Part shown: positions 1 through 39,710 of the stretch, in pieces | How positions within the stretch are numbered: position 1 is the stretch's first letter | How the letters are laid out: each line of letters begins with the position of its first letter | Assembly: GCF_029338555.1 (NCBI RefSeq) | Contig: NZ_CP119989.1 | Span: 1,178,001 to 1,242,000, forward strand | From: Halobaculum marinum | Lineage (GTDB): Archaea > Halobacteriota > Halobacteria > Halobacteriales > Haloferacaceae | Reading direction: 5' to 3' | Length of the DNA stretch: 64,000 nucleotides | The notes under the pieces: generated by a model | Database searches by the model: none | What the model saw: the letters and a program-made list of their open reading frames with translations, nothing else | Told to the model about the DNA's origin: nothing | Program-made: the position numbers and the translations under genes

Positions 1-2
1 GG

Positions 3-404
3 CGATCGTACACCGACGGCGTCCCCGATACGATCGGGTTCGACATCCCCTCCCCGTCTGACGACGACTACGGGGGCACCGACCCCGAGGGGCTCGGGGC
101 CGACTCGGTGTACCGATTCGGACACGACGCCGGGAACGACGAACGCGGCCTGTTCGCCGTGAGAAACCAGGGGACGAACCCGATCCGGGTGTACAGCACA
201 CAACCGGACCGGGAGGACGTGCCGAGCGTCGTCATGTACGACATCGACTCCGGCGACACCCTGACCGAGAGTGACCCGTCGGCGGTGCTCGGCGTCGGCG
301 ACGTGCTCGTCTGCGGACTGGAGATCGACACGTACGGCGTCCCGGTCCGCGAGGACGAGTACGACCTGACGCTCACGATCAACGGCGTCGCGACGAACGA
401 GTAA
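3..404 (+). CDS. DUF1102/TasA-camelysin-like secreted protein, 5' end missing
   Basis: This frame is open from the window edge to the TAA at 402-404, so only the C-terminal 133 residues are present. The segment with FAVRNQGTNPIRVY matches the equivalent strand in the complete protein at 3069-3746 (FRISNQGTDPVGIF), which marks the two as paralogs. Such proteins are secreted beta-sandwich subunits related to the DUF1102 and TasA/camelysin families. The fragment has no C-terminal membrane anchor. It is the first of three family members in this locus and lies 53 nt upstream of the next. The family assignment rests on the shared motif and on context. Confidence 0.75.
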   Translation, partial: RSYTDGVPDTIGFDIPSPSDDDYGGTDPEGLGADSVYRFGHDAGNDERGLFAVRNQGTNPIRVYSTQPDREDVPSVVMYDIDSGDTLTESDPSAVLGVGDVLVCGLEIDTYGVPVREDEYDLTLTINGVATNE

Positions 405-457
405 CACCCACTCGGAGCACGGCGGTTCGACTCCGCCGGTGGGTTTCACAGATCGTA

Positions 458-2017
458 ATGAAACGAGTCGCCGCCGCGGTCTCCCTGCTGGCCCTCTCGG
501 GAGCACTCGTGTTCCCATCAGCCGCCGCACCGTTCGCCCTCTCCCAATCTGACGTGATCACGCAAGACGTGTCGCTCGCCCCGACGTCTGCCCCCAACGG
601 CGACTACGCCTACCTCGACGACGACGAACTCGTCGTCGACCTCACCGCCTCGAACCCGAACCTCGCGGGGGACGCCGAGGGGGTCAACCCCGACGCCGTC
701 ACGACCATATCGAACGTCTTCCGGATCCACTACAACGGCTCGCAGTACGCGCACGTCTGGATCACAGACGAGTCCGACGCCGTGACGTTCGTCGTCGACG
801 GCGAGCCGATCCAGTCCGAGGCGGCCAACGTCACACTCGGGCCGAACGAGTCGGTCGCAGTCGGGGTCGTCGTCGACACGACCGGCGACGGCGGCGACGG
901 GCTGATCGACCAGATCCAGGTGAACGCCCGTGTCGCCGACCCCGAGACGGCGACCGTCGCGACCGGCGGCGGCACGGGCGGCGACGACTCGGACGACACG
1001 AGCGTCGGCGTCGCCACCACCTCGATCCGACAGTCCGCACCGAGCGAGACCGAGCGGCGGGTCGAGGTGCGCAATCCCGACGGGTCGGTCGGCGTCGACC
1101 TCGACCCACTGCCGCTCGACGCCGGCGGGAACGTCACGCTCGACGAACTCGACCTCACGGCGACCGGCGGAGCCACCGTCGACCTCGGACTCGACGTGTC
1201 GGCGCCGGACACCGACGCCGGCCCCGGGTCTCTCCTCGGCGTCGAGTCGCTCGGGGCCGTCGCGGTGACCGAGGCGGACGCGGGCAGCGTCGACGCGGCG
1301 ACGCTCCGGTTCAGCGTCTCGCCCGCCTACCTCGACGCCCGGAACGTCGACTCAGACGATCTGACCGTGTTCCGGACCAGCGACGGGGAGACGACGACGC
1401 TGCCGGTCCGTGTCGTCGGGGAGCGCGACGACGGTCGCGTCGTCGTCGAAGCCGACACCCCCGGGTTCTCGACGTTCACCGTCGCCGCGCTTCGGCCGGC
1501 GATCCGAGTCTCCGAGGCGTCGCTCTCGACGACCGACATCGAGGTCGGGGAGCGGACGACCGTCACTGCCCGGGTCAGCAACGACGGGCGCGCCGCCGGC
1601 GAACGGACGCTACGGGTGACGCTCGACGGCGACCTGGTCGCCGAACGGGTCGTCGACCTCGCTCCGAACGAGACGACGACCGTGACGGTCGACGTCGCCC
1701 CCGACGGGCCGGGGAGCTACGAGGTCGCCGTCGACGGCACGACTGCGGGCACCCTCGTGGTCGCGGATGGAGAGTCGACCGACGACGCGGCCGCCGGTGG
1801 CGCAACCCTGACCGAACAGTCCGACCTCGGAGACACCACGCCGGGTGGAGCGTCAACTTCGGGGGCCGGGACGGTCGCGGACGGCGAACCCGACGTGGCG
1901 ACCGCCGGTCCGGTCGAGGAGCCGGCGGGACTCGGACTGCCCGAGGTCGGCGGCCTCACGGTCGCGGTCGCGCTGGTGGTCGCGACGCTCCTGCTCGTCC
2001 GGCGCGTCTCTCGGTGA
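458..2017 (+). CDS. DUF1102 surface protein with PGF-pre-PGF and CARDB-like domains and C-terminal anchor
   Basis: The product has 519 residues. Residues 1-24 form a Sec-type signal. A DUF1102-like domain follows (about 50-160, with GVNPDAVTTISNVFRI). Then come a Gly/Asp-rich spacer, a PGF-pre-PGF-type domain (about 200-345, ending in DTPGFSTFTV) and a CARDB-like beta-sandwich (about 348-435). A low-complexity acidic stalk leads to a single membrane helix (about 493-514) with a short Arg-rich tail. The C-terminus reads PEVGG, then the hydrophobic helix, then RRVSR. This recalls protein-sorting tags of the PGF-CTERM or GlyGly-CTERM type, although no exact PGF is present. The stop codon overlaps the start of the rhomboid-like gene (GTGA), so the two are probably translationally coupled. 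It is likely a surface-anchored protein. Confidence 0.85.
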   Translation: MKRVAAAVSLLALSGALVFPSAAAPFALSQSDVITQDVSLAPTSAPNGDYAYLDDDELVVDLTASNPNLAGDAEGVNPDAVTTISNVFRIHYNGSQYAHVWITDESDAVTFVVDGEPIQSEAANVTLGPNESVAVGVVVDTTGDGGDGLIDQIQVNARVADPETATVATGGGTGGDDSDDTSVGVATTSIRQSAPSETERRVEVRNPDGSVGVDLDPLPLDAGGNVTLDELDLTATGGATVDLGLDVSAPDTDAGPGSLLGVESLGAVAVTEADAGSVDAATLRFSVSPAYLDARNVDSDDLTVFRTSDGETTTLPVRVVGERDDGRVVVEADTPGFSTFTVAALRPAIRVSEASLSTTDIEVGERTTVTARVSNDGRAAGERTLRVTLDGDLVAERVVDLAPNETTTVTVDVAPDGPGSYEVAVDGTTAGTLVVADGESTDDAAAGGATLTEQSDLGDTTPGGASTSGAGTVADGEPDVATAGPVEEPAGLGLPEVGGLTVAVALVVATLLLVRRVSR

Positions 2018-2928
2018 CTCGTGGACCGAACGCTTTCGTGGGTTCGGGTCACACACCCGGTGATCGTCGCGTGCTAGACGAACACCGATCGGTTCGCGCG
2101 GAACTGCGTCGACGCGGCCGCGTCCGCGACTGCCTCGCGTTAGCGGTCGTCCCGGCCGTCCTCGTCGCGGTGTTCCTGCTCCCGGAGTCGACCCGGCGCG
2201 GGCTGGCGTTCGTCTACCAGCGACCGACCCTCGCGACCGCGTACACGGCCCACTTCGTCCACCTGTCGCTCGACCACCTGCTCGCCAACGTGCTCGGCTA
2301 CGTGCTGTTGGCCGGCACGGGCTACGTGCTCGCGGTGCTCGCGGGCGCTCGACGGCTGTTCGGCGCCGCGGCCGCGACGAACCTCCTCGCGTTCCCGGTC
2401 GTGCTCTCGGCGCTGAACCTGGCGATCCCGAGAGACGCCGTCGGCTACGGCTTCTCCGGCGTGACGATGGCGTTCGCCGGACTGCTCGCGGTCGTCGGCG
2501 CGGCGTACGCCGGTCGACGACTCCACCCCGCGGTCGGCGTGCGACACGCGCCGGGCGCGTTCTTCGCCGTACTCGCGCTCGTGTCGGTGATCGTGTTACC
2601 CTCGGTCCCGCTCGCGTGGGCGCTCGCGTCGGTCGCCGCACTGGGGGCGCTCGGGTACGTGGGCTCGGCCGCGCGGGCGCTCCGCTCGCCCGCCGCACCG
2701 TCAGCGTGGCGCGGGGTCAGCGACCCGGGGTGGTCGGATATCCTCGTCGTCGCCGCAGTCGTGTTCTTCGGCTACCCGTTCGTCGGCTTCCCGGCGGACG
2801 TTCGCAGTGGTGGCACGCTCACCAACGTGTACGTCCACCTCCTCGGGTTCTGTCTGGCGTTCCTCGTCGCGTACGTGTGCGCCGAGTCCGGGCTGTTCGG
2901 CGCTGGGTCCGATCGGGGCCACCCCTGA
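2014..2928 (+). CDS. rhomboid-family intramembrane serine protease
   Basis: This is a 304-residue polytopic membrane protein. It carries the rhomboid hallmarks: H83 and H88-L-L-A-N92 in an early helix, GYGFSG with the predicted nucleophile S148, and VYVHLLGF with the partner H275. About six or seven helices are predicted. The GTG start at 2014 overlaps the upstream stop. A second in-frame GTG at 2071 would remove 19 non-hydrophobic residues and is equally possible. Rhomboids cleave membrane helices within the bilayer. Coupling to a surface protein with a C-terminal helix suggests, but does not prove, a protease-substrate pair. Confidence 0.85.
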   Translation: MTRGPNAFVGSGHTPGDRRVLDEHRSVRAELRRRGRVRDCLALAVVPAVLVAVFLLPESTRRGLAFVYQRPTLATAYTAHFVHLSLDHLLANVLGYVLLAGTGYVLAVLAGARRLFGAAAATNLLAFPVVLSALNLAIPRDAVGYGFSGVTMAFAGLLAVVGAAYAGRRLHPAVGVRHAPGAFFAVLALVSVIVLPSVPLAWALASVAALGALGYVGSAARALRSPAAPSAWRGVSDPGWSDILVVAAVVFFGYPFVGFPADVRSGGTLTNVYVHLLGFCLAFLVAYVCAESGLFGAGSDRGHP

Positions 2929-3068
2929 CTGTCGGTGGTCCGCCGAACGCGGGGCTCAGGGTCGGCCTGAGCGGCGTCACACTCGGGCATCGATCCCGCG
3001 GACTGCTCAATACAATGACGGGTCCTCCCCATCGGCAGAACACACTCGGGACCCGGGTGTGTGCAACC

Positions 3069-3746
3069 ATGGATCGACGGAAATTCCTCGCAAGTGTGGG
3101 ATCGCTCGCCGCCGGAACAACTGCTGCCGTCAGTACGGGCGCGTTCAGTCGAACGAGTGCGACTCGTTCGGTGAACGTACGGACTGTTGGTGACGCGGCC
3201 GCGTACCTCAAATTGAGCGGTGGCCAGTACGCCAACTACAACGAGAACGGCGTGCTGGAACTGGAACTGGACCGGATAAACGCCAACTCAGACGTCGAGT
3301 TCTCCGACGTCTTCAGGATCAGTAATCAGGGCACCGACCCCGTCGGGATATTCATCGACGAGGGGAGCGCGAGCTACGCGTTCCAGAACGGGAACGGACC
3401 GGCGGAAGCGCCGTCGGAGGCGGGCTCGGACGGGATGTACAACGTCCTCAGTAACGCGGGCTTCAATCAGGCCGGGTGGTACGACGACGACATCACCACC
3501 GGAGAGGACATCAACGGGCCGAAAGCGCTCCCCAGCGGCTACCGGCCGTCGCCGCCGGACGGGAACAGCGCGAACAATCGGACCTTCGGCACCGACAAAG
3601 ATCACATTCTCGCGGTCGGTCAGAGCATCTCGCCGGACTGGTACATCTTCGACACGCCCGCCGACCCCTCCGACCTCGACATCACCGGCGAAATCGTGAT
3701 CCTCGCGTACTCGAAGGACTACGTCGACGCAGGCAAGGGGCCGTAA
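3069..3746 (+). CDS. secreted DUF1102/TasA-camelysin-like protein with Tat/SipW-type signal
   Basis: The 225-residue product starts with MDRRKFLASVG. This is a twin-arginine-like signal running into an Ala/Gly/Thr segment that ends in STGAFS, a motif typical of SipW-dependent signal peptides. The mature part carries FSDVFRISNQGTDPVGIF, the DUF1102-type strand, and ends after a beta-rich region with no anchor. An ATG at 3015 is in frame, but 3069 is preferred because it places the RR motif at the N-terminus. The signal-peptidase gene lies 108 nt downstream. The protein is probably a filament- or matrix-forming subunit; that role is inferred from the TasA/camelysin families. Confidence 0.85.
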   Translation: MDRRKFLASVGSLAAGTTAAVSTGAFSRTSATRSVNVRTVGDAAAYLKLSGGQYANYNENGVLELELDRINANSDVEFSDVFRISNQGTDPVGIFIDEGSASYAFQNGNGPAEAPSEAGSDGMYNVLSNAGFNQAGWYDDDITTGEDINGPKALPSGYRPSPPDGNSANNRTFGTDKDHILAVGQSISPDWYIFDTPADPSDLDITGEIVILAYSKDYVDAGKGP

Positions 3747-3854
3747 TCGCGACCGACAAGTCGACGTACTGACTGCGTCGGTGACGGTCGATCAGCGGCC
3801 GTCCCGGCGGACCCGAGCATTCTTGTCTCCCGCAGCGAACACGTCATCGAATCG

Positions 3855-5021
3855 ATGGATGCCCGACGACTCCTGACGCTCGGCACCGAGGTGCTCCTCG
3901 TCGTGTTCGTCGTCTCGTTGGTCGCCGGCCAGGCACTCGGGCAGCCGATCCTCCTCAGTTACGTCGAGACCGGGAGCATGGCGCCGACGATGGAGCCCGG
4001 TGACGGCTTCATCGCGGTGCCGGCGGCCATCGCGGGCGAACCAGAAGCGGGCGACGTGGTCACCTTCGAGGCCGAGGAGTTGAACGGCGGCGGCCTCACC
4101 ACCCACCGGATCGTGGGCGAGACCGACAGGGGGTACATCACCCGTGGGGACGCGAACCCGTTCATCGACCAGGACGGCGACGAACCGCCGGTGAAGGACG
4201 CCCAGATCGTCGCACACGCGCTCCAAGTCGGCGACTCCGTGGTCGTCCTCCCGGGGGTTGGGACCGGCGTCGTGGCCGTGCGCGGGGTCCTCTCGGGCGC
4301 ACAGCGGTGGGTCGCGACCACGGTCGGCAGTCGGTCGCTGCTCGGGACGCAGGGAATCGCGTACCTCGTGTTGGCCCTGTCTGCGCTGGGCTACGTGGTC
4401 GACCTCCGCCGCGGGGGCGACGGCGCGACGCGGGACCGCACTCGGTCGACGGACCGCGACGAGGGGGTTTCGACGCGACTGATCCTCGTCGGTCTCGCCG
4501 GGATGGTGGTCGTCTCGGCGACGGCGGCGATGGCCGTCCCCGGGGGGACCCAGCAGTTCGGGATCGTCAGCGCGGAGTTCGACTCGGAGAACCCGACGGT
4601 GATCAGACAGGGCGAGTCCGCGATGCTCGAGTACCGGGTCCCCAACGCTGGGCTCGTCCCGGTCCACGCGTACGTCCGCCCGGCCAGCGACGGCGTCGAC
4701 GTCGCGCCCGACCACGTGTTCGTCTCGGGACGGGCAGAGGGCCGCGTGTCGGTGACGCTGTCGGCTCCCCCGGAGACGGGGTACTACCGCCGCTACGTCG
4801 CCGAACGGCGGTACCTCGCGGTGTTACCCGAGCCGTGGATCCGGGGCCTGTCACTGGTGCACCCGTGGCTCCCCATCGTCGCCATCGACGCGCTCCTCGC
4901 TGGGAGCCTGTACGGGCTCGGAGTGCTCCTCGTCGACGGGAGCCGGATGCGGCGTCGCTCGCACGACTCCAGACACGAGCGCTCGACGCTGGTGCGCCTG
5001 TGGCGGGTCTTGTCGCGGTAG
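3855..5021 (+). CDS. ER-type signal peptidase I with extra extracytoplasmic domain
   Basis: This 388-residue S26-family signal peptidase has an N-terminal membrane helix (about 10-29). The catalytic Ser41 lies in TGSMAPTM, and His84 in THRIVG replaces the bacterial lysine, as in archaeal and ER-type enzymes. The conserved RGDAN box is at about 97-101. The peptidase core ends near residue 160. Three more predicted helices (about 164-183, 209-228 and 338-361) bracket a beta-sandwich segment (about 235-325) that is not part of the peptidase fold. The gene sits between DUF1102 substrates and a DUF5305 gene, which suggests a dedicated, SipW-like processing enzyme rather than the general signal peptidase. 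Confidence 0.92.
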   Translation: MDARRLLTLGTEVLLVVFVVSLVAGQALGQPILLSYVETGSMAPTMEPGDGFIAVPAAIAGEPEAGDVVTFEAEELNGGGLTTHRIVGETDRGYITRGDANPFIDQDGDEPPVKDAQIVAHALQVGDSVVVLPGVGTGVVAVRGVLSGAQRWVATTVGSRSLLGTQGIAYLVLALSALGYVVDLRRGGDGATRDRTRSTDRDEGVSTRLILVGLAGMVVVSATAAMAVPGGTQQFGIVSAEFDSENPTVIRQGESAMLEYRVPNAGLVPVHAYVRPASDGVDVAPDHVFVSGRAEGRVSVTLSAPPETGYYRRYVAERRYLAVLPEPWIRGLSLVHPWLPIVAIDALLAGSLYGLGVLLVDGSRMRRRSHDSRHERSTLVRLWRVLSR

Positions 5022-5069
5022 TTCCCGCGACCGATAGTCCTTTGACACGTCGACCCACAGGCAGGTTCG

Positions 5070-6320
5070 ATGGACGAGGCCACGCGTCTGCGCGTTCGGG
5101 CCGTACTATCGTCGTGGGCGACGCTGTTGTTGGTCGCCGCGGTCGTCGTCGGCGCACTCGGCGCGTGGGCGACGTACGGCGCCCACGTCGCGCCGGGGAC
5201 GACGACCGAGGAGCGGACGACGCAGGCGTGGAGTACGACTGCCGACTTCGACCACTCGGCGACGGTCACCCGGGAGAACCCGCTGTTCCCGGTCGGCACG
5301 GAACTGTCGAACCGCTCGACGTACTTCACCGCCGCCGCGCCGGTGCTCGACGGGACGTTCACGGTGGCGCCGCGAGGGCTCGACGGCAACGTCTCCGTCG
5401 ACCTCGCGGCGACGCTCGTGCTCCGCTCGGCGGACGAGGAGACCACCTACTGGCGGGACACGCGGCCCCTCGCCGAGTCGAGCGCCGCCGGCGCCGACGG
5501 CCCGGTCTCGCTGGCCTTCTCGCTGAACGTGACCGAGGTGGCCCAGCGCATCGCGACCATCGAGGAGGGCATCGGGACGACGCCCGGCGAGACGAGCGCC
5601 GCGGTCGTCGTCGACGCGCGCGTGGCCGGCACGGCCGACGGCGACCCGAGCAGTCTGGCGTTCTCCCGACGGCTCTCGCTCGGACTGGCCGGCGACACGT
5701 ACACCGCCACCGCGCCGGGGTCGACCACCGAGACCGTCGAGCAGACCACCACGGTCCGGGTGCCGGACACCGCGGGGCCGCTCCGATCGATCGGTGGCCC
5801 GTTCGCCCTGCTCGTCGGCGCGGTCGCGGCGGGCGGTCTGGGGTACGCCACGCGTCGGACGGACCTCGCGCTCGACGACCACGAGCGTGCTCGACTCGAC
5901 TACCTCGACGACCGAGCGGAGTTCGACGAGTGGATCGTCGCCGTCGAGTTGCCGCCCCCGGCGGACGACGTCACTGTCGCGGAGGCAGCCTCGCTCGCGG
6001 ATCTAGTGAATCTCGCGATCGACACCGACACCGCGGTGCTCGAAGCACCCGGCGAGGAACTGTTCACCGCCGTCGCGGACGACCACCGCTACACGTATCG
6101 ACCGCCGGCACCGACCGCGGACCGCGACGGCGGCGCCCTCGCTGGGACGGTGCTCGGGGGGAACCACACGGAGAACGGAGCCGACGCGACCGCCGACGGC
6201 AGTGATCCGCTGGCGGTAAACGGCGACGACCCAGCGGCGACCGCCGGCGCCGCCGACGACGGCGGCGACGACCGCGATGATCCGACGACTGCCGCGCCTC
6301 CCGACGCCGAGCGCGAGTGA
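5070..6320 (+). CDS. DUF5305 membrane protein
   Basis: The product has 416 residues with a helix near the N-terminus (about 15-37), a large external beta-rich region (about 40-235) and a second helix (about 244-262). An acidic cytoplasmic tail ends in an Asp/Ala-rich low-complexity run. This architecture matches haloarchaeal DUF5305 proteins, whose function is unknown and which recur beside signal peptidase I genes. It starts 48 nt after the peptidase gene and is probably co-transcribed. It may act as an accessory or scaffold for export of the DUF1102 proteins, which is inference. Confidence 0.8.
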   Translation: MDEATRLRVRAVLSSWATLLLVAAVVVGALGAWATYGAHVAPGTTTEERTTQAWSTTADFDHSATVTRENPLFPVGTELSNRSTYFTAAAPVLDGTFTVAPRGLDGNVSVDLAATLVLRSADEETTYWRDTRPLAESSAAGADGPVSLAFSLNVTEVAQRIATIEEGIGTTPGETSAAVVVDARVAGTADGDPSSLAFSRRLSLGLAGDTYTATAPGSTTETVEQTTTVRVPDTAGPLRSIGGPFALLVGAVAAGGLGYATRRTDLALDDHERARLDYLDDRAEFDEWIVAVELPPPADDVTVAEAASLADLVNLAIDTDTAVLEAPGEELFTAVADDHRYTYRPPAPTADRDGGALAGTVLGGNHTENGADATADGSDPLAVNGDDPAATAGAADDGGDDRDDPTTAAPPDAERE

Positions 6321-6333
6321 GCCGGCGCCCCCG

Positions 6334-6720
6334 TCACCCGATCAACAGCCGCAGGTTCAGCGCCGTCGTGAACGCGCCGACGAACGACAGCACGACCGGC
6401 GGGAGGTAGTAGCCGACGCGGTCGCCAGCGCGGGCGCTGGAGAGGCTGATCGCGAGGCAGACGCCGAACACCACCAACTTCACCGCGATCAGGCCGGCCT
6501 CGCCGAAGCCGCCGACCGCGGCGGCGATGAGCGCGTTCGCCTCGTTCACGGTGTCCGAGTAGCCGATGAGCGCGAGCGTCGTGACGATGTCGCCCACGCC
6601 GTACGTCACGGTCGCGACGAACCACAGCCGCGAGAACTCGACGGCGTCGAACGGCGTGTCCGACAGCGAGAGCCACCTCGCTGACTCGGCGGTGGTGTCG
6701 TCACCGGCGTCCGCTGTCAT
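6334..6720 (-). CDS. small polytopic membrane protein, possibly DUF5658-like
   Basis: A 128-residue protein with a hydrophilic N-terminus of about 28 residues, followed by three or four predicted helices (around 30-55, 62-80, 82-100 and 104-126). The first contains GVGDIVTT, where an acidic residue lies inside a helix, as in DUF5658-type proteins. It ends 13 nt from the convergent DUF5305 gene and lies 42 nt downstream of the HAD phosphatase gene on the same strand. No function is assignable. Confidence 0.7.
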   Translation of the reverse strand: MTADAGDDTTAESARWLSLSDTPFDAVEFSRLWFVATVTYGVGDIVTTLALIGYSDTVNEANALIAAAVGGFGEAGLIAVKLVVFGVCLAISLSSARAGDRVGYYLPPVVLSFVGAFTTALNLRLLIG

Positions 6721-6762
6721 ACCGACGAGACGGCGGCGACGGATGAAAACACTCCCGAGTCC

Positions 6763-8007
6763 TCACTCCCCGTTCAGGTCGGCGAGACAGCGCCACGCGT
6801 ACATCGTCCGGAGCACGTCGGCGGCGCCCCCCGGTGCGAACACGAGGTCGTCGGTCGCGCGGACGTGCTCCAGCACGGACGCCGAGGAATGCTCGGGGGC
6901 GGCCGCGATGCCGGCTTCGTTGTCCGCGGCCCACTCCATCACTCGGAGGTCGGACTTCGAGTCCCCCATCACGCAGACGAACGGGTCGTCGACGCCGAGC
7001 ACGTCGAGTGCGGCCTCGACGCCGGCGGCCTTGTGGAGGTCCGCCGCCGCCAACTCGGCGGCGTCCGCGCGGTACAGCGCCACCTCCAGTCGGTCGAACA
7101 GCGCGGCGGCGGCCTCGGGGACCTCGCCGTCGGCGCTCGAACCAGCCCGCTCGATTGCGCCCGCAATCTCCGGGTCGTCGTCGGCGTAGAACGCGCGCGC
7201 AGCGGCGGCGCCGTCGTCGAGGCCGAGTCGGTCGCCTGCGGCCTCGCCGACGAGCCCGAGGAGGTGCACCATCGCCTCGTCGATCACCGCCTCGGCGTCG
7301 TCGCTCCCCGTCTCGTAGTTCGGCTTCAGCGTGACGTTGAACTCGTTCCCCTGCAGGTGACAGCCGCGCCGGACGCGCTCAGGCGCCCCGCGGAGCACGC
7401 CGTCGCGGACGCGGTCGACGACGCCGCGCACGTCGTCGTCCAACTCGTCGTACAGCAGGCGTTTGGTGTCGGCGCCACTGCCGGGGGTGAACACGCCGGC
7501 ACCCGCCTCGTACACGACCGACACGTCGCCCGAGTGGACGAGTTCGTTGCCGAGCCCCTGGATGAGGAACCCCTTGACGTTCTCCAGCGTCTGCCCCGTG
7601 CAGATCACCAGCGGGACACCGAGTTCCTCGGCGAACTCCGTGAGGAGGTGGAGCGTCTCCCGTGGGATCTCGTTGTCCGTCTCGCCGGCAGAGCGGAGCG
7701 TCTCGTCCACGTCGAGGACGAGCGCGTTCGGTGCGCGGCCGTACGTGCCGTGCAGGTCGAGCGCGGTGAACGCCGACTCGCGGTCGGCCATCGCCGCGAC
7801 CTCCGCGAGTGCGGCGCCGTCGTGGTCACCGAAGGCGCGCTCGATGCGCTCGCGCCGGTCGGTCAGGTCGGCGTTGGCCTCGTCCCAGCGGTCGAGCGCC
7901 ACCCGCGAGTCCAGCGGGGGGAACAGGTCGACGAACTCGCGGTACGCGCGCAGCGTCTCCGTGTCGAACTCGCCGTACAGTTCGTACAGATGGTCGTAGA
8001 GAGTCAT
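6763..8007 (-). CDS. HAD-superfamily phosphatase
   Basis: The 414-residue product has an N-terminal helical region (about 1-90) and then a haloacid dehalogenase fold. Motif I is LVLDVDET with D99 and D101, motif II is in LVICTGQT, and motif IV is MGDSKSD near residue 373. The layout suggests a Cof or trehalose-phosphatase-like (class II) HAD hydrolase acting on a phosphorylated small molecule, but the substrate is unknown. The start at 8007 (MTLYDHLYEL) was chosen because upstream in-frame residues are Arg-rich and non-conserved in character. Confidence 0.85.
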   Translation of the reverse strand: MTLYDHLYELYGEFDTETLRAYREFVDLFPPLDSRVALDRWDEANADLTDRRERIERAFGDHDGAALAEVAAMADRESAFTALDLHGTYGRAPNALVLDVDETLRSAGETDNEIPRETLHLLTEFAEELGVPLVICTGQTLENVKGFLIQGLGNELVHSGDVSVVYEAGAGVFTPGSGADTKRLLYDELDDDVRGVVDRVRDGVLRGAPERVRRGCHLQGNEFNVTLKPNYETGSDDAEAVIDEAMVHLLGLVGEAAGDRLGLDDGAAAARAFYADDDPEIAGAIERAGSSADGEVPEAAAALFDRLEVALYRADAAELAAADLHKAAGVEAALDVLGVDDPFVCVMGDSKSDLRVMEWAADNEAGIAAAPEHSSASVLEHVRATDDLVFAPGGAADVLRTMYAWRCLADLNGE

Positions 8008-8200
8008 GGAGACGACATCGGGACACCGGGCAAAAGCACCAGCGGCTTCGACATGTACGGCCGACCGGTGTCGACGACGACGGCTCGACCGGCGAGCGCG
8101 CGGCGAGTCCCTGTCGCAGCCAGATCCCGGCAGAAGTGTCAGGCTCACCGACTTATTGCCACGAAATGTGATATTTCTGTGCGATTGTCCACTACGGCGA

Positions 8201-8212
8201 GATATTTATACG
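8201..8212 (+). promoter_or_regulatory. TATA box upstream of the LOV histidine kinase
   Basis: An AT-rich block, gatatttata, stands out in GC-rich DNA. By haloarchaeal spacing (about 27 nt) transcription would start near 8233-8236, which coincides with the ATG of a short reading frame at 8235. Confidence 0.6.
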
Positions 8213-8234
8213 GTGTCCCACTCGTCCTGCGAGT

Positions 8235-8300
8235 ATGGACCGCAGTTTGGCGGATATCTGTACTCGCGCGTACGTTCCGAGGCGACGTGATGACCGATAG
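8235..8300 (+). CDS. possible leaderless upstream ORF, 21 aa
   Basis: An ATG lies 27-30 nt after the TATA box and opens a 21-codon frame (MDRSLADICT...) that ends at TAG 8298-8300. It overlaps the kinase start at 8290 in another frame. If the transcript is leaderless, ribosomes would meet this frame first, so it could attenuate or couple kinase translation. Only its position supports it. Confidence 0.3.
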   Translation: MDRSLADICTRAYVPRRRDDR

Positions 8301-10470
8301 CGAGACGGACGCCGGCACCAGTCGCTCGCCGTCGACGGCCTGCGTGGACGCGACGCTCCGTCTCGACCAGTCGCTCTGTTATCTCGGGGTCGACGACGAC
8401 GGAGCCGACCTGCTCGGCATCGGTTCCGACGCCACGGGGACCGACGTGCTCGCACGCCTGTCGCAGTCCCCCGCAGCAGTCCGGAGCAGACTCCACGCCG
8501 CACAGGAGACCGGGCGGCCGGTGACGATACGCTGGGACTCGTCGGCCACGGGGGCCGCGGGGTGGGGGTGGGCCCGCCCGACCGACGACGGCGTCTCGAT
8601 CCTGCTGTCGGTCGACGACGGGGCGCACACGGTGGACGGCGAACGGTCGGACCCCACCGAGTCCGAGTCGGTGGTGTCCCGGAGCGCACTGCTCGAACAG
8701 ACTGAGTACCTGGCGAACACCGGTGGGTGGGAGTACGACTGCAGTCGAGAGACGATCACGTGGACCGCGGGGACCAGGGAGATTCACGGCGTCGCGCCAG
8801 AGTACGAACCGACGCTGGAGGAGGCACTCTCGTTTTACCACCCGGACGACCGAGAACTGCTCGCGAATCACTTCGACCGTGCGATCGACGACCAGGAGCC
8901 CTACGACACGGAGGCCCGCATCGAGACGGGCGGCGGGCGTCAAAAGTGGATCCGCACCGTCGGCGACCCGGTCACAGACGCCGACGGCGAGGTCGTCGCC
9001 GTCCGCGGGGCGATCCAAGACATCACCCGACAACGTGCCCAACAACAGCAGATCTCGATTCTCAAACGAGCCATCGACGCGTCGCCGGTCGGTGTGACGC
9101 TGGTCGACGTTCGACGAGACGACGAACCGCTGGTGTACGTGAACAGCGCGTTCGAGGACCTCACCGGCTACGACGAGTCCGAGGCACTCGGTCGAAACTG
9201 CCGGTTCCTCCAGGGTGAGCGCACCCGCGAAGAGTCCGTCGCGCAACTGCGCGCGGCGATCGAGGCGGGCGACGCGGCGTCGGTCGAACTCCGAAACTAC
9301 CGGGCCGACGGGACGGAGTTTTGGAACCACCTCACGATCTCGCCCGTCGCCGACGCCAGCGGCGAGATCACCCACTACGTGGGGTTCCAGACCGACATCA
9401 CGGACGCGAAGTCGCTCAGGACACAGCTACAGCAGTTCAAGCGCGCAGTCGAGAGCTCCGCCCACGCGATCTACATCACCGACGTCGACGGGACGATCAC
9501 GTACGTGAACGAGGCGTTCGAGGAGATCACTGGCTACCCCGCCGACGAGGCCGTCGGACGGACGCCGCGAATCCTCAACTCCGGCCAGATGGACGACGAG
9601 TACTACGAGCGCCTGTGGAGTGAGCTCACCGCGGGGAACTCCTTCGAGGAGCGCATCATCGACAGGGACCGCGACGGACACTTCTACCGCGCCCACCAGA
9701 CGATCTCACCGCTGACCGACGACGGAGCCGTGACGGGGTTCGTCGCCGTCCAGACCGACATCACCGACCAGATCGAACGATCCCAACAGGTCGCCGTTCT
9801 CGACCGGGTGTTGCGCCACAACCTCCGCAACGACATGAACGTCATCCTCGGGCACGCAGGCCGACTCACCGACGCGCTCGACGGCGACCTCGCCGACGCC
9901 GCGGAGGCGATCACCGATGCCGGGAACAGACTGCTCGGCATCGCGGACAAGGAGCGAGCGATCGTGTCGCACTTGAACGGGCCCACCGAGCGGACCACAC
10001 AGGACGTGGAGTCACTGGTCGACGCCATCCTCGACGACCTCCGACCGAAGTATCCCGACGCGGAACTGACCGTCGACCGCCTGGCGGGGGTGACGGTGAA
10101 CGCCACGACGCAGGTCGGCGACGCCCTCGGCGAGTTCGTCGAGAACGCCCTCAAACACTCTGGCGCCACGCCGGCGTCGGTCCGCCTCTCGGCGGAGGTG
10201 CGGCGAGAGCGGTCGGAGGACGTCGTCCGGATCTCGATCGCCGACCGGGGGCCGGGCGTGCCCGAGTCCTTGCGCCAACTCATCTCTTCGGACCGGGTCC
10301 CGGACTCGTTGACCCACTCCGACGGCCTCGGGATGTGGATCGCGCGGTGGGTCGTGACGCGGTCGGGGGGATCCGTCGACTTCGAGGAGCGCACCGGCGG
10401 CGGGACGGTGGTCCACGTGACGCTCCCCGGCGGCTTCGACGAGTCTCCCGACGCCGACCAGCGACACTGA
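8290..10470 (+). CDS. multi-PAS histidine kinase with a LOV photoreceptor domain
   Basis: This 726-residue soluble kinase has no membrane helix. An N-terminal PAS-like region (about 15-115) is followed by PAS1 (about 133-250). PAS2 (about 256-375) carries GRNCRFLQ with C304, plus NYRADGTEFWNHL, the flavin-binding signature of LOV domains. PAS3 spans about 376-495. The H-box VLRHNLRND contains the phospho-acceptor H510, and an HATPase domain follows (about 600-715, with ENALKHS and GLGMWIARW). It probably senses blue light or redox through FMN and phosphorylates an unlinked regulator, as no receiver domain or response-regulator gene lies beside it. The ATG at 8290 follows a weak gagg. Confidence 0.92.
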   Translation: MTDSETDAGTSRSPSTACVDATLRLDQSLCYLGVDDDGADLLGIGSDATGTDVLARLSQSPAAVRSRLHAAQETGRPVTIRWDSSATGAAGWGWARPTDDGVSILLSVDDGAHTVDGERSDPTESESVVSRSALLEQTEYLANTGGWEYDCSRETITWTAGTREIHGVAPEYEPTLEEALSFYHPDDRELLANHFDRAIDDQEPYDTEARIETGGGRQKWIRTVGDPVTDADGEVVAVRGAIQDITRQRAQQQQISILKRAIDASPVGVTLVDVRRDDEPLVYVNSAFEDLTGYDESEALGRNCRFLQGERTREESVAQLRAAIEAGDAASVELRNYRADGTEFWNHLTISPVADASGEITHYVGFQTDITDAKSLRTQLQQFKRAVESSAHAIYITDVDGTITYVNEAFEEITGYPADEAVGRTPRILNSGQMDDEYYERLWSELTAGNSFEERIIDRDRDGHFYRAHQTISPLTDDGAVTGFVAVQTDITDQIERSQQVAVLDRVLRHNLRNDMNVILGHAGRLTDALDGDLADAAEAITDAGNRLLGIADKERAIVSHLNGPTERTTQDVESLVDAILDDLRPKYPDAELTVDRLAGVTVNATTQVGDALGEFVENALKHSGATPASVRLSAEVRRERSEDVVRISIADRGPGVPESLRQLISSDRVPDSLTHSDGLGMWIARWVVTRSGGSVDFEERTGGGTVVHVTLPGGFDESPDADQRH

Positions 10471-38768: not shown

Positions 38769-39710
38769 TCACGGCTGCGGACGCACTCTGAGCCAGATCT
38801 GGATGCGGCGGAACGGCGACTCCGATCCGCGCTCGTAGAGGCGGTAGGTCAATCGAAGACGTTCGCCGACCATCTGTGGCTGGATGGTGTGGCGTCTAAC
38901 AACGGTTTTCCCCGATGCCACGGAGACCTCGAACGACCCTAGCTGTCGTGACTCCGTGACGGTCGCTGTCTCGCTGTCGACCGAGACGCGTTCGAGCGAG
39001 GCGACGACGGAGCCGTCGAACCCGTTCAGCCGAGTCGTGCCGACGCCGATTCCCACTGTTGCCCGCTCACCGACGGTCAGGTTCCTCGGATAGTTGCCGG
39101 CGACCAACTCTCCGGATTCGGTTTCTCCGAGGATGTAGAACTCGGTGGCCGTTCCGGAAGATGTCGTATCCGCGACGACGACCGCGACGCCACCAACCGC
39201 CACAGCGACGACGAGCAGCGTCAGGACGACGCCAACCGGACCGTCACCGGCGACCGCAGTGTGAGCCCGATCTCGAACCGCCGAGACGCTCGCTCCTGCG
39301 CGGGCATCGGGACTGACCTGTCGCCGCCGGTACCACGCAACCACCGCCGCAGCCAGCGTCAACGCCGCCAGCAGCCCGACGACAGCTTCCCGCTGAAATC
39401 CCCAGACGGTGAACTCGAGCGCGACGCCGACGACGGTGACCGCCATGACGCTCCCGGCGACACTCAACACCAAGCGCGACAGCCAGCCTCCCCCCTCAGC
39501 CGGCTTCGTCTCGTCCGCTCGCGGGAACACGGCGGAGACGAGCGCGTACCCGGGAACCAACAGAACGAACGGGAGGCCGACTACGAGAGCGAGCGGCCGC
39601 CACTCACCAAGCGGCGTGAACACGACGGCGAGTGCCACTGCGACTCCCGCGCCGACCGCGAGCAAGTCCGCCGGTGGCACCGCGCTCTCATCGTCCCCGG
39701 CAACTGGCAT
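38769..39710 (-). CDS. DUF1616 membrane protein
   Basis: The 313-residue protein has an N-terminal block of four helices (about 13-31, 35-60, 78-102 and 104-125) with LPFVLLVPGYALVSAVFP, the DUF1616 signature. A further helix (about 158-180) and an external beta-sandwich follow (about 185-313; EFYILGETESGELVAGNYP). Such proteins recur in archaeal surface-glycan loci. The C-terminal codons abut the transposase relic. A TATA-like ggtttaatc is centred 28 nt before the start, suggesting a leaderless mRNA. Confidence 0.88.
   Translation of the reverse strand: MPVAGDDESAVPPADLLAVGAGVAVALAVVFTPLGEWRPLALVVGLPFVLLVPGYALVSAVFPRADETKPAEGGGWLSRLVLSVAGSVMAVTVVGVALEFTVWGFQREAVVGLLAALTLAAAVVAWYRRRQVSPDARAGASVSAVRDRAHTAVAGDGPVGVVLTLLVVAVAVGGVAVVVADTTSSGTATEFYILGETESGELVAGNYPRNLTVGERATVGIGVGTTRLNGFDGSVVASLERVSVDSETATVTESRQLGSFEVSVASGKTVVRRHTIQPQMVGERLRLTYRLYERGSESPFRRIQIWLRVRPQP

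Follow-up and report, generated by a model that had tools for sequence, protein, structure and literature searches.

Organization of the gene cluster

A seven-gene cluster, all on the + strand of a 3.5 Mb haloarchaeal genome, lies mostly at positions 1-6320 of the 64,000-nucleotide (nt) stretch of DNA analysed here (C1:1178001-1242000, called the window; other loci and genomes bear L and G numbers). In order, it encodes two pilins, a TafF-like protein (458-2017), a rhomboid-like protein (2014-2928), a third pilin (3069-3746), a SipW-type signal peptidase (3855-5021) and a DUF5305 membrane protein (5070-6320). The two leading pilin genes begin upstream of the window: one lies outside it altogether (L007:12137-12763), and the other (L007:12835-13404) begins 165 nt before it and has its 3' part at 1-404. 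Our subject is the rhomboid gene and the C-terminal tail of the TafF-like protein encoded directly before it, which we propose to be an enzyme and its substrate within a pilus operon.

The preliminary description of this DNA had placed open reading frames at 1-404 (3' part), 458-2017, 3069-3746, 3855-5021 and 5070-6320 on one strand, where we also find them, with gaps of 140 nt or less. This spacing holds if the rhomboid gene, which that description omitted, is counted, but not otherwise. Its DUF5305 protein and its ER-type signal peptidase are borne out by the profile matches given below. Of the three DUF1102-type proteins that it named, 458-2017 matches the Pfam family (32.8 bits, cut-off 22.2), whereas 1-404 and 3069-3746 do not.

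Pilins and relationship to Tafi

The three pilins resemble those of the Tat-fimbriae (Taf; Tafi pili) of haloarchaea (Galeva et al., iScience 2025, as cited in an excerpt of PMC12687288). Pilin profile A4 matches the solved Tafi pilin of Natrinema sp. J7-2 (PDB 9p0a) at E 4.4e-18, and a profile search with the upstream pilin does so at E 5.8e-15; TasA is absent among the sequence matches of these searches. All three pilins carry twin-arginine (Tat) signals (QRRKFL, KRRNLV and, in 3069-3746, DRRKFL), in which RR precedes a hydrophobic stretch, as it does in most of the relatives listed. Each signal peptide is closed by [ST]GAFS: the pilin at 1-404 has MGTGAFS, and 3069-3746 has the STGAFS ending that had been reported earlier for one subunit, with the mature part beginning at about 3150. 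The signal of 458-2017 has no RR motif.

Profile searches unite 1-404, 3069-3746 and 458-2017 in one TafA/TafE/TafF-like group. Because their scores fall under the NCBIfam equivalog cut-offs (61.5-67.9 of 155 bits for TafE, 31.2-42.3 of 190 for TafA and 42.8 of 420 for TafF), the cluster proteins are, on sequence grounds, relatives of TafA, TafE and TafF, not equivalogs. The predicted model of mature 3069-3746 is of moderate quality (predicted local distance difference test [pLDDT] 65, 27 rows). With this model, Foldseek ranks the Natrinema Tafi pilus first (E 3e-3, probability 0.97) and the TasA fibre 8aur second (E 0.018, probability 0.47), and a second aligner puts a Pyrobaculum bundling pilus on top (Z 8.7), with the Tafi pilus lower (Z 7.1) and amid unrelated immunoglobulin (Ig)-like folds at about Z 7. 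The preliminary description had suggested comparing this model with TasA and archaeal pili, and the leading matches are indeed of these kinds, not unrelated folds. Given the moderate quality of the model, the fold match counts for less than the pilin's sequence match to Tafi. As judged by homology, the locus is a divergent Tafi locus, a filament type already known in haloarchaea, and this part by itself merely confirms a known system in divergent form.

A large expansion of pilin genes is seen in another genome (G010; L096, L097), which has 13 TafE-profile matches, most of them within one 30 kb region.

The TafF-like protein and its tail

The TafF-like protein (458-2017, 519 amino acids [aa]) consists, after its signal, of a pilin-like DUF1102 domain, a PGF-pre-PGF domain, a CARDB domain, an acidic linker and a C-terminal tail. 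The tail (1916-2014), the proposed substrate segment of the rhomboid, reads EEPAGLGLPEVGG-TM-RRVSR: an EPxG...GG motif, a transmembrane helix (TM) and a basic end, or EPxG-(GG)-TM-RR in general form, with the rhomboid gene coming directly after. In an alignment of 20 tails (A2), the E, P, G and terminal R are invariant, and motif, TM and basic end together give the tripartite layout of a sorting tail.

Membership of the PGF-CTERM family was rejected: in its own genome, the tail is not among the 17 matches to TIGR04126 up to E 1, 10 of which are over the cut-off. NCBIfam 20.0 gave no EPxG-type tail family for the proteins tested. The archaeosortase ArtA, searched for in this genome only, is present (329 bits) but, like PGF-CTERM, separate. 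In the window's TafF-like protein and in L135, L136 and L155, the EPxG tail follows a PGF-pre-PGF domain that scores over its cut-off; this looks as though one sorting tail had been swapped for another on similar proteins. The genome's second-best match to the tail profile described below falls in the window at 38769-39710 (- strand; E 3.6e-4, profile positions 15-42, without the EPxG). It sits within an internal TM segment of a membrane protein and was taken as chance.

The rhomboid gene

The gene at 2014-2928 may share its first 4 nt with the end of 458-2017 (start GTG 2014, overlapping the stop codon), with GTG 2071 as an alternative start. Its product has no Pfam match and only a weak match to rhombosortase, and it is not among the PF01694 rhomboids of its own genome, which lie elsewhere. 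In alignment A3 (the window and 32 of the 49 named loci introduced below, the remainder being near copies, fragments or L158), residues H69, N73, G127, S129, G130, H256 and G259, numbered from 2071, are kept in all 33 rows, and every row has the Ser-His dyad with GxSG and HxxxN, as in rhomboid proteases (S54). The predicted model (pLDDT 86, predicted template modelling score 0.87) was compared with known structures by the second aligner, which placed GlpG and iRhom at ranks 1-33 (Z 11.8-9.2, next Z 6.1), GlpG matching at Z 11.8 with a root-mean-square deviation of 3.4 over 167 residues. Foldseek alone gave nothing below E 0.1, yet its top four matches are GlpG; a PDB sequence search with a nine-row rhomboid profile found no rhomboid. 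By these residues and the GlpG-like predicted fold, the product of 2014-2928 is identified as a divergent rhomboid protease whose catalytic residues are intact.

Rhombosortase membership was ruled out by a missed cut-off and a missing hallmark. Three members score 20.1, 21.4 and 23.9 bits against TIGR03902 (cut-off 84), and the His that rhombosortases have four positions past their active-site Ser, according to an excerpt of PMC3237569, is absent: this position (Ser+4) is Met in 29 of the 33 rows, Leu in 2, Ser in 1 and Thr in 1. No archaeal rhombosortase or EPxG-type tail was found among the literature matches listed.

Pairing of tail and rhomboid across genomes

A survey of 59 genomes of the order gave nine rhomboid matches of at least 39% identity (the window's included), all within or beside pilus clusters. 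Forty-nine loci were collected by scanning named genomes, which include Halorubrum, Halobellus, Halospeciosus, Haloparvum, Halobacterium, Haloplanus, Natronocalculus, Halalkalirubrum and Halobaculum; the peptidase lies within 6 kb of the rhomboid in 38 of these, DUF5305 in 35 and both in 34. Genes neighbouring the rhomboid end in an acidic linker, EPxG[ILFV], a GG-containing TM start and RR. Such a tail is seen in 43 of the 49 loci, 37 by pattern and 6 by eye (L133, L134, L142, L145, L154 and L149, whose gene is on the opposite strand); five are without and one was lost at a contig end. Among the by-eye tails, those of L133, L134 and L142 do score with the TafF-tail profile.

This profile was built from 26 TafF tails and applied to 4,678 C-termini, where it picked up another 24 below E 5e-3, every one of them in a rhomboid locus; nine are on non-TafF proteins, and among the remainder several closely duplicate sequences of the training set. 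The rhomboid partner is an open frame of 2,476-3,287 aa in L135, L136, L147 and L151 (three run off the locus), and in L137, L138 and L155 it is shorter (518-585 aa) and comes after another tail-bearing frame of larger size. Domain scans of three of these partners (L155, L136, L147) showed CARDB, PKD or Ig domains. To account for the non-TafF partners, a quick tree of the rhomboids requires three changes, at least two of which are forced by well-supported branches; L135 and L138 are also near pilus genes and a SipW-type peptidase, and are not wholly outside a pilus context.

Across 234 genomes, tail matches (E<=1e-4) occur in 36, the class rhomboid (E<=1e-60) in 49 and both in 30, so that the rhomboid is found in 30 of 36 tail-bearing genomes versus 19 of 198 others (Fisher p 3e-19, kinship of the genomes ignored). 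Each of the 33 strongest tails (E<=1e-8) comes from a genome that also has the rhomboid, and 28 of these tails are no more than 1 kb away from it. Rhomboid-distant tails in G021 (two places) and G033 are on TafF-like proteins encoded in additional pilus clusters, where a rhomboid was not found. Fourteen loci come from genomes that lack this class of rhomboid (L060, L065, L068, L072, L074, L076, L077, L078, L080, L085, L087, L090, L094 and L104). None of their TafF-like proteins falls below E 0.5 with the tail profile, and the PGF tail of L060 is not among the rows listed, which extend up to E 9.8; the idea that any TM-RR end would match was rejected accordingly. L061, L091, L101 and L105 were excluded from this count because their genomes hold a rhomboid or a piece of one. 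Eight DUF5305 loci of the window's family in genomes without the rhomboid class (L197-L204) show no clear TafF and were unusable as tail controls.

Several observations weigh against a strict pairing. The Fisher p overstates independence because the profile was built from rhomboid neighbours and the genomes are related. Five loci (L141, L148, L152, L153 and L158) have no tail-bearing neighbour, and 19 of the 49 rhomboid genomes have no tail match at E<=1e-4; in the loci examined for these 19 (18 plus G043), some rhomboid neighbours show the variants EEPAAI, AEPAAI, EQSGF, EVGGF or EIGSL and some show none. Six tail genomes (tail E 1e-7 to 7e-5) are without the class rhomboid. A second pilus locus (L101) in the rhomboid genome G004 encodes a tail-less TafF, L088 has a rhomboid near the cluster and no tail, and L061 (G020) combines an 89-aa rhomboid fragment with a TafF that has a different end. 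The tail of the giant L151 partner, EQFGF, is not found by the profile up to E 10; L091 scores only E 9e-3; and the G019 match sits in a frame whose C-terminus shows no tail.

At L206:5623-6447 (G115), the rhomboid gene is divided between two frames, next to an intact TafF gene whose product bears the tail; either the gene is broken or the assembly is in error. In L141 and L148, from two Natronomonas metagenome-assembled genomes, the rhomboid relative lies behind a gene that by eye resembles a histidine kinase, not a tail-bearing protein. Two tail-bearing proteins without TafF similarity, L162:8056-9534 and L163:8207-9865 (G052, G004), are rhomboid-distant (EEPGLFSLG..., SPLEGFGIG...) and are possible further substrates.

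Signal peptidase and DUF5305

The 3855-5021 product scores 51.5 bits against TIGR02228 (cut-off 51.85) and 53.5 bits, above the cut-off, in the genome search; against the SipW model NF046067 it reaches 27.5 of 190 bits, below the cut-off. It carries SMxP, HRI and GDxN motifs, the His standing at the place of the Lys in bacterial enzymes, and is of the archaeal/ER type. An extra C-terminal domain follows, and its profile (positions ~194-306) matches Ig/CARDB-like repeats of several TafF-like proteins. The 416-aa product of 5070-6320 matches PF17231 (DUF5305) at 156 bits (cut-off 29). No mention of DUF5305 or DUF1102 was found in the literature searched.

Of the 59 genomes surveyed, 36 have DUF5305, 34 have TafE-type pilins and 56 have TIGR02228 peptidases. 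For the 44 DUF5305 loci examined, a SipW-type peptidase lies within 10 kb in 40, a TafA/E-like gene in 37 and both in 36, and the peptidase is on the same strand less than 300 nt from DUF5305 in 28. Those without a peptidase are L062, L063, L083 and L102, the last being a short contig. The linkage of pilin and peptidase, for which a survey of DUF5305 neighbourhoods had been suggested beforehand, is conserved beyond chance.

Proposed role and alternative explanations

We propose, with a probability of roughly 0.7, that the locus is a pilus operon of a divergent Tafi type, to which a rhomboid protease is dedicated; tail and enzyme would form a dedicated C-terminal sorting pair of rhomboid type, analogous to rhombosortase and GlyGly-CTERM. 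The pilins would be exported by their Tat signals, and the [ST]GAFS signals would be cut by the SipW-type peptidase of the operon, as its motifs and linkage suggest. The mature subunits, related by homology and fold, would polymerise as in Tafi and TasA filaments. From its domain order, the TafF-like protein may enter the filament via its N-terminal pilin-like domain and be held in the membrane by its C-terminal helix. The adjacent rhomboid, paired with it on genomic evidence, would then cut it at or near EPxG...GG, at the outer edge of the helix, and TafF would be freed or passed to another anchor; transfer, for example to lipid, and pilus shedding are speculative outcomes. DUF5305 might, at a guess, be a membrane platform. 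We give about even odds to a wider, undescribed haloarchaeal sorting system beside archaeosortase/PGF-CTERM, in which a distinct rhomboid clade (Met at Ser+4) would cut pilus anchors and giant adhesin-like proteins at their EPxG-TM-RR tails and pass them to a new surface anchor or release them.

The rhomboid could instead be a passenger of the operon that acts elsewhere (in quality control, or on the peptidase or DUF5305), the TafF tail being a plain membrane anchor. It does stay with the peptidase in most of the named loci (38/49), it occurs without a tail-bearing neighbour in 5/49, and TafF-like proteins of rhomboid-less genomes have other TM-plus-basic ends; but the tail accompanies the rhomboid onto non-TafF proteins (L135-L138, L147, L155) and the control proteins of the 14 loci fail to match the tail profile, and we consider a passenger unlikely. 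The tail might also be a variant PGF-CTERM signal processed by archaeosortase A, with the rhomboid incidental. This we hold to be highly improbable: the tail is missing from the PGF-CTERM matches of its own genome, and ArtA alone, as searched there, leaves the restriction of strong tails to rhomboid genomes unexplained, even though ArtA is encoded in that genome, the PGF-pre-PGF domain precedes the tail, the three-part layout is shared, and L060, whose genome lacks this class of rhomboid, has a TafF-like protein with a PGF tail at its end.

The preliminary description had favoured a dedicated matrix-filament pathway parallel to TasA-SipW. Its filament likeness stands at the level of predicted fold, with Tafi first and TasA second; the plain TasA-SipW parallel does not, the signals being Tat-type, and the pathway is not new but the known Tafi system. 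A biofilm matrix pathway of TasA-SipW kind in archaea, separate from the archaeal pili already known, would draw on that second Foldseek match and on the presence of a SipW-type peptidase, but given the sequence homology to the Tafi pilin, the lack of TasA among the sequence matches and the Tat signals, it is quite improbable.

For a dedicated rhomboid in a Tafi-type operon, the gene order itself points to the substrate, the likely cleavage region and the enzyme. If this is true, haloarchaeal rhomboids would gain defined natural substrates, and archaea would possess another type of C-terminal sorting enzyme in addition to archaeosortase, one that could serve to tether pili or to shed them.

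Comparison with known systems

The window shares with Tafi its homologous pilins, Tat-type signals and a TafF-like protein; it differs in the PGF-pre-PGF domain, CARDB domain and EPxG tail added to that protein and in the rhomboid gene of the operon, which we provisionally regard as new within a Tafi locus. The TasA-TapA-SipW system of Bacillus has a subunit fold that may be related and an ER-type signal peptidase alongside, whereas the window has Tat signals, several pilins, DUF5305, a TafF-like anchor and a rhomboid, and no sequence match to TasA.

As in the rhombosortase/GlyGly-CTERM systems of Vibrio and Shewanella, a rhomboid-fold enzyme stands beside a protein with a tail of motif, TM and basic end. 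In contrast to them, the window's motif is EPxG with GG further in, the system is archaeal, and the enzyme scores 20-24 bits versus 84 and has Met at Ser+4. An excerpt of PMC3237569 describes dedicated GlyGly-CTERM pairs as adjacent, with other targets elsewhere, a many-to-one pattern that the rhomboid-distant tails of G021 and G033 resemble; for VesB in Vibrio, transfer to lipid is reported in an excerpt of PMC6219818. Archaeosortase A/PGF-CTERM likewise involves an archaeal C-terminal tail of the same layout with a PGF-pre-PGF domain in front, but the enzyme fold is unrelated and the motif different, and both systems are present in this genome. RhoI and RhoII of Haloferax volcanii, likened here by description only, are haloarchaeal rhomboids tied to cell-surface traits; excerpts of PMC11985538 and PMC9263693 treat their natural substrates as not settled, and the former names the natural substrates of haloarchaeal rhomboids as future work.

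Neighbouring genes

A divergent gene pair (L007:10654-11753, - strand) adjoins the pilus genes upstream of the window. One member encodes a short secreted protein resembling the N-terminus of TafC (29.9 of 410 bits), and the other a DUF7344 protein that may be a regulator. Close to the cluster on its upstream side, L007:1177-5676 and 5872-8679 (- strand) encode large, acidic, secreted-looking proteins of 1499 and 935 aa with FG-GAP repeats.

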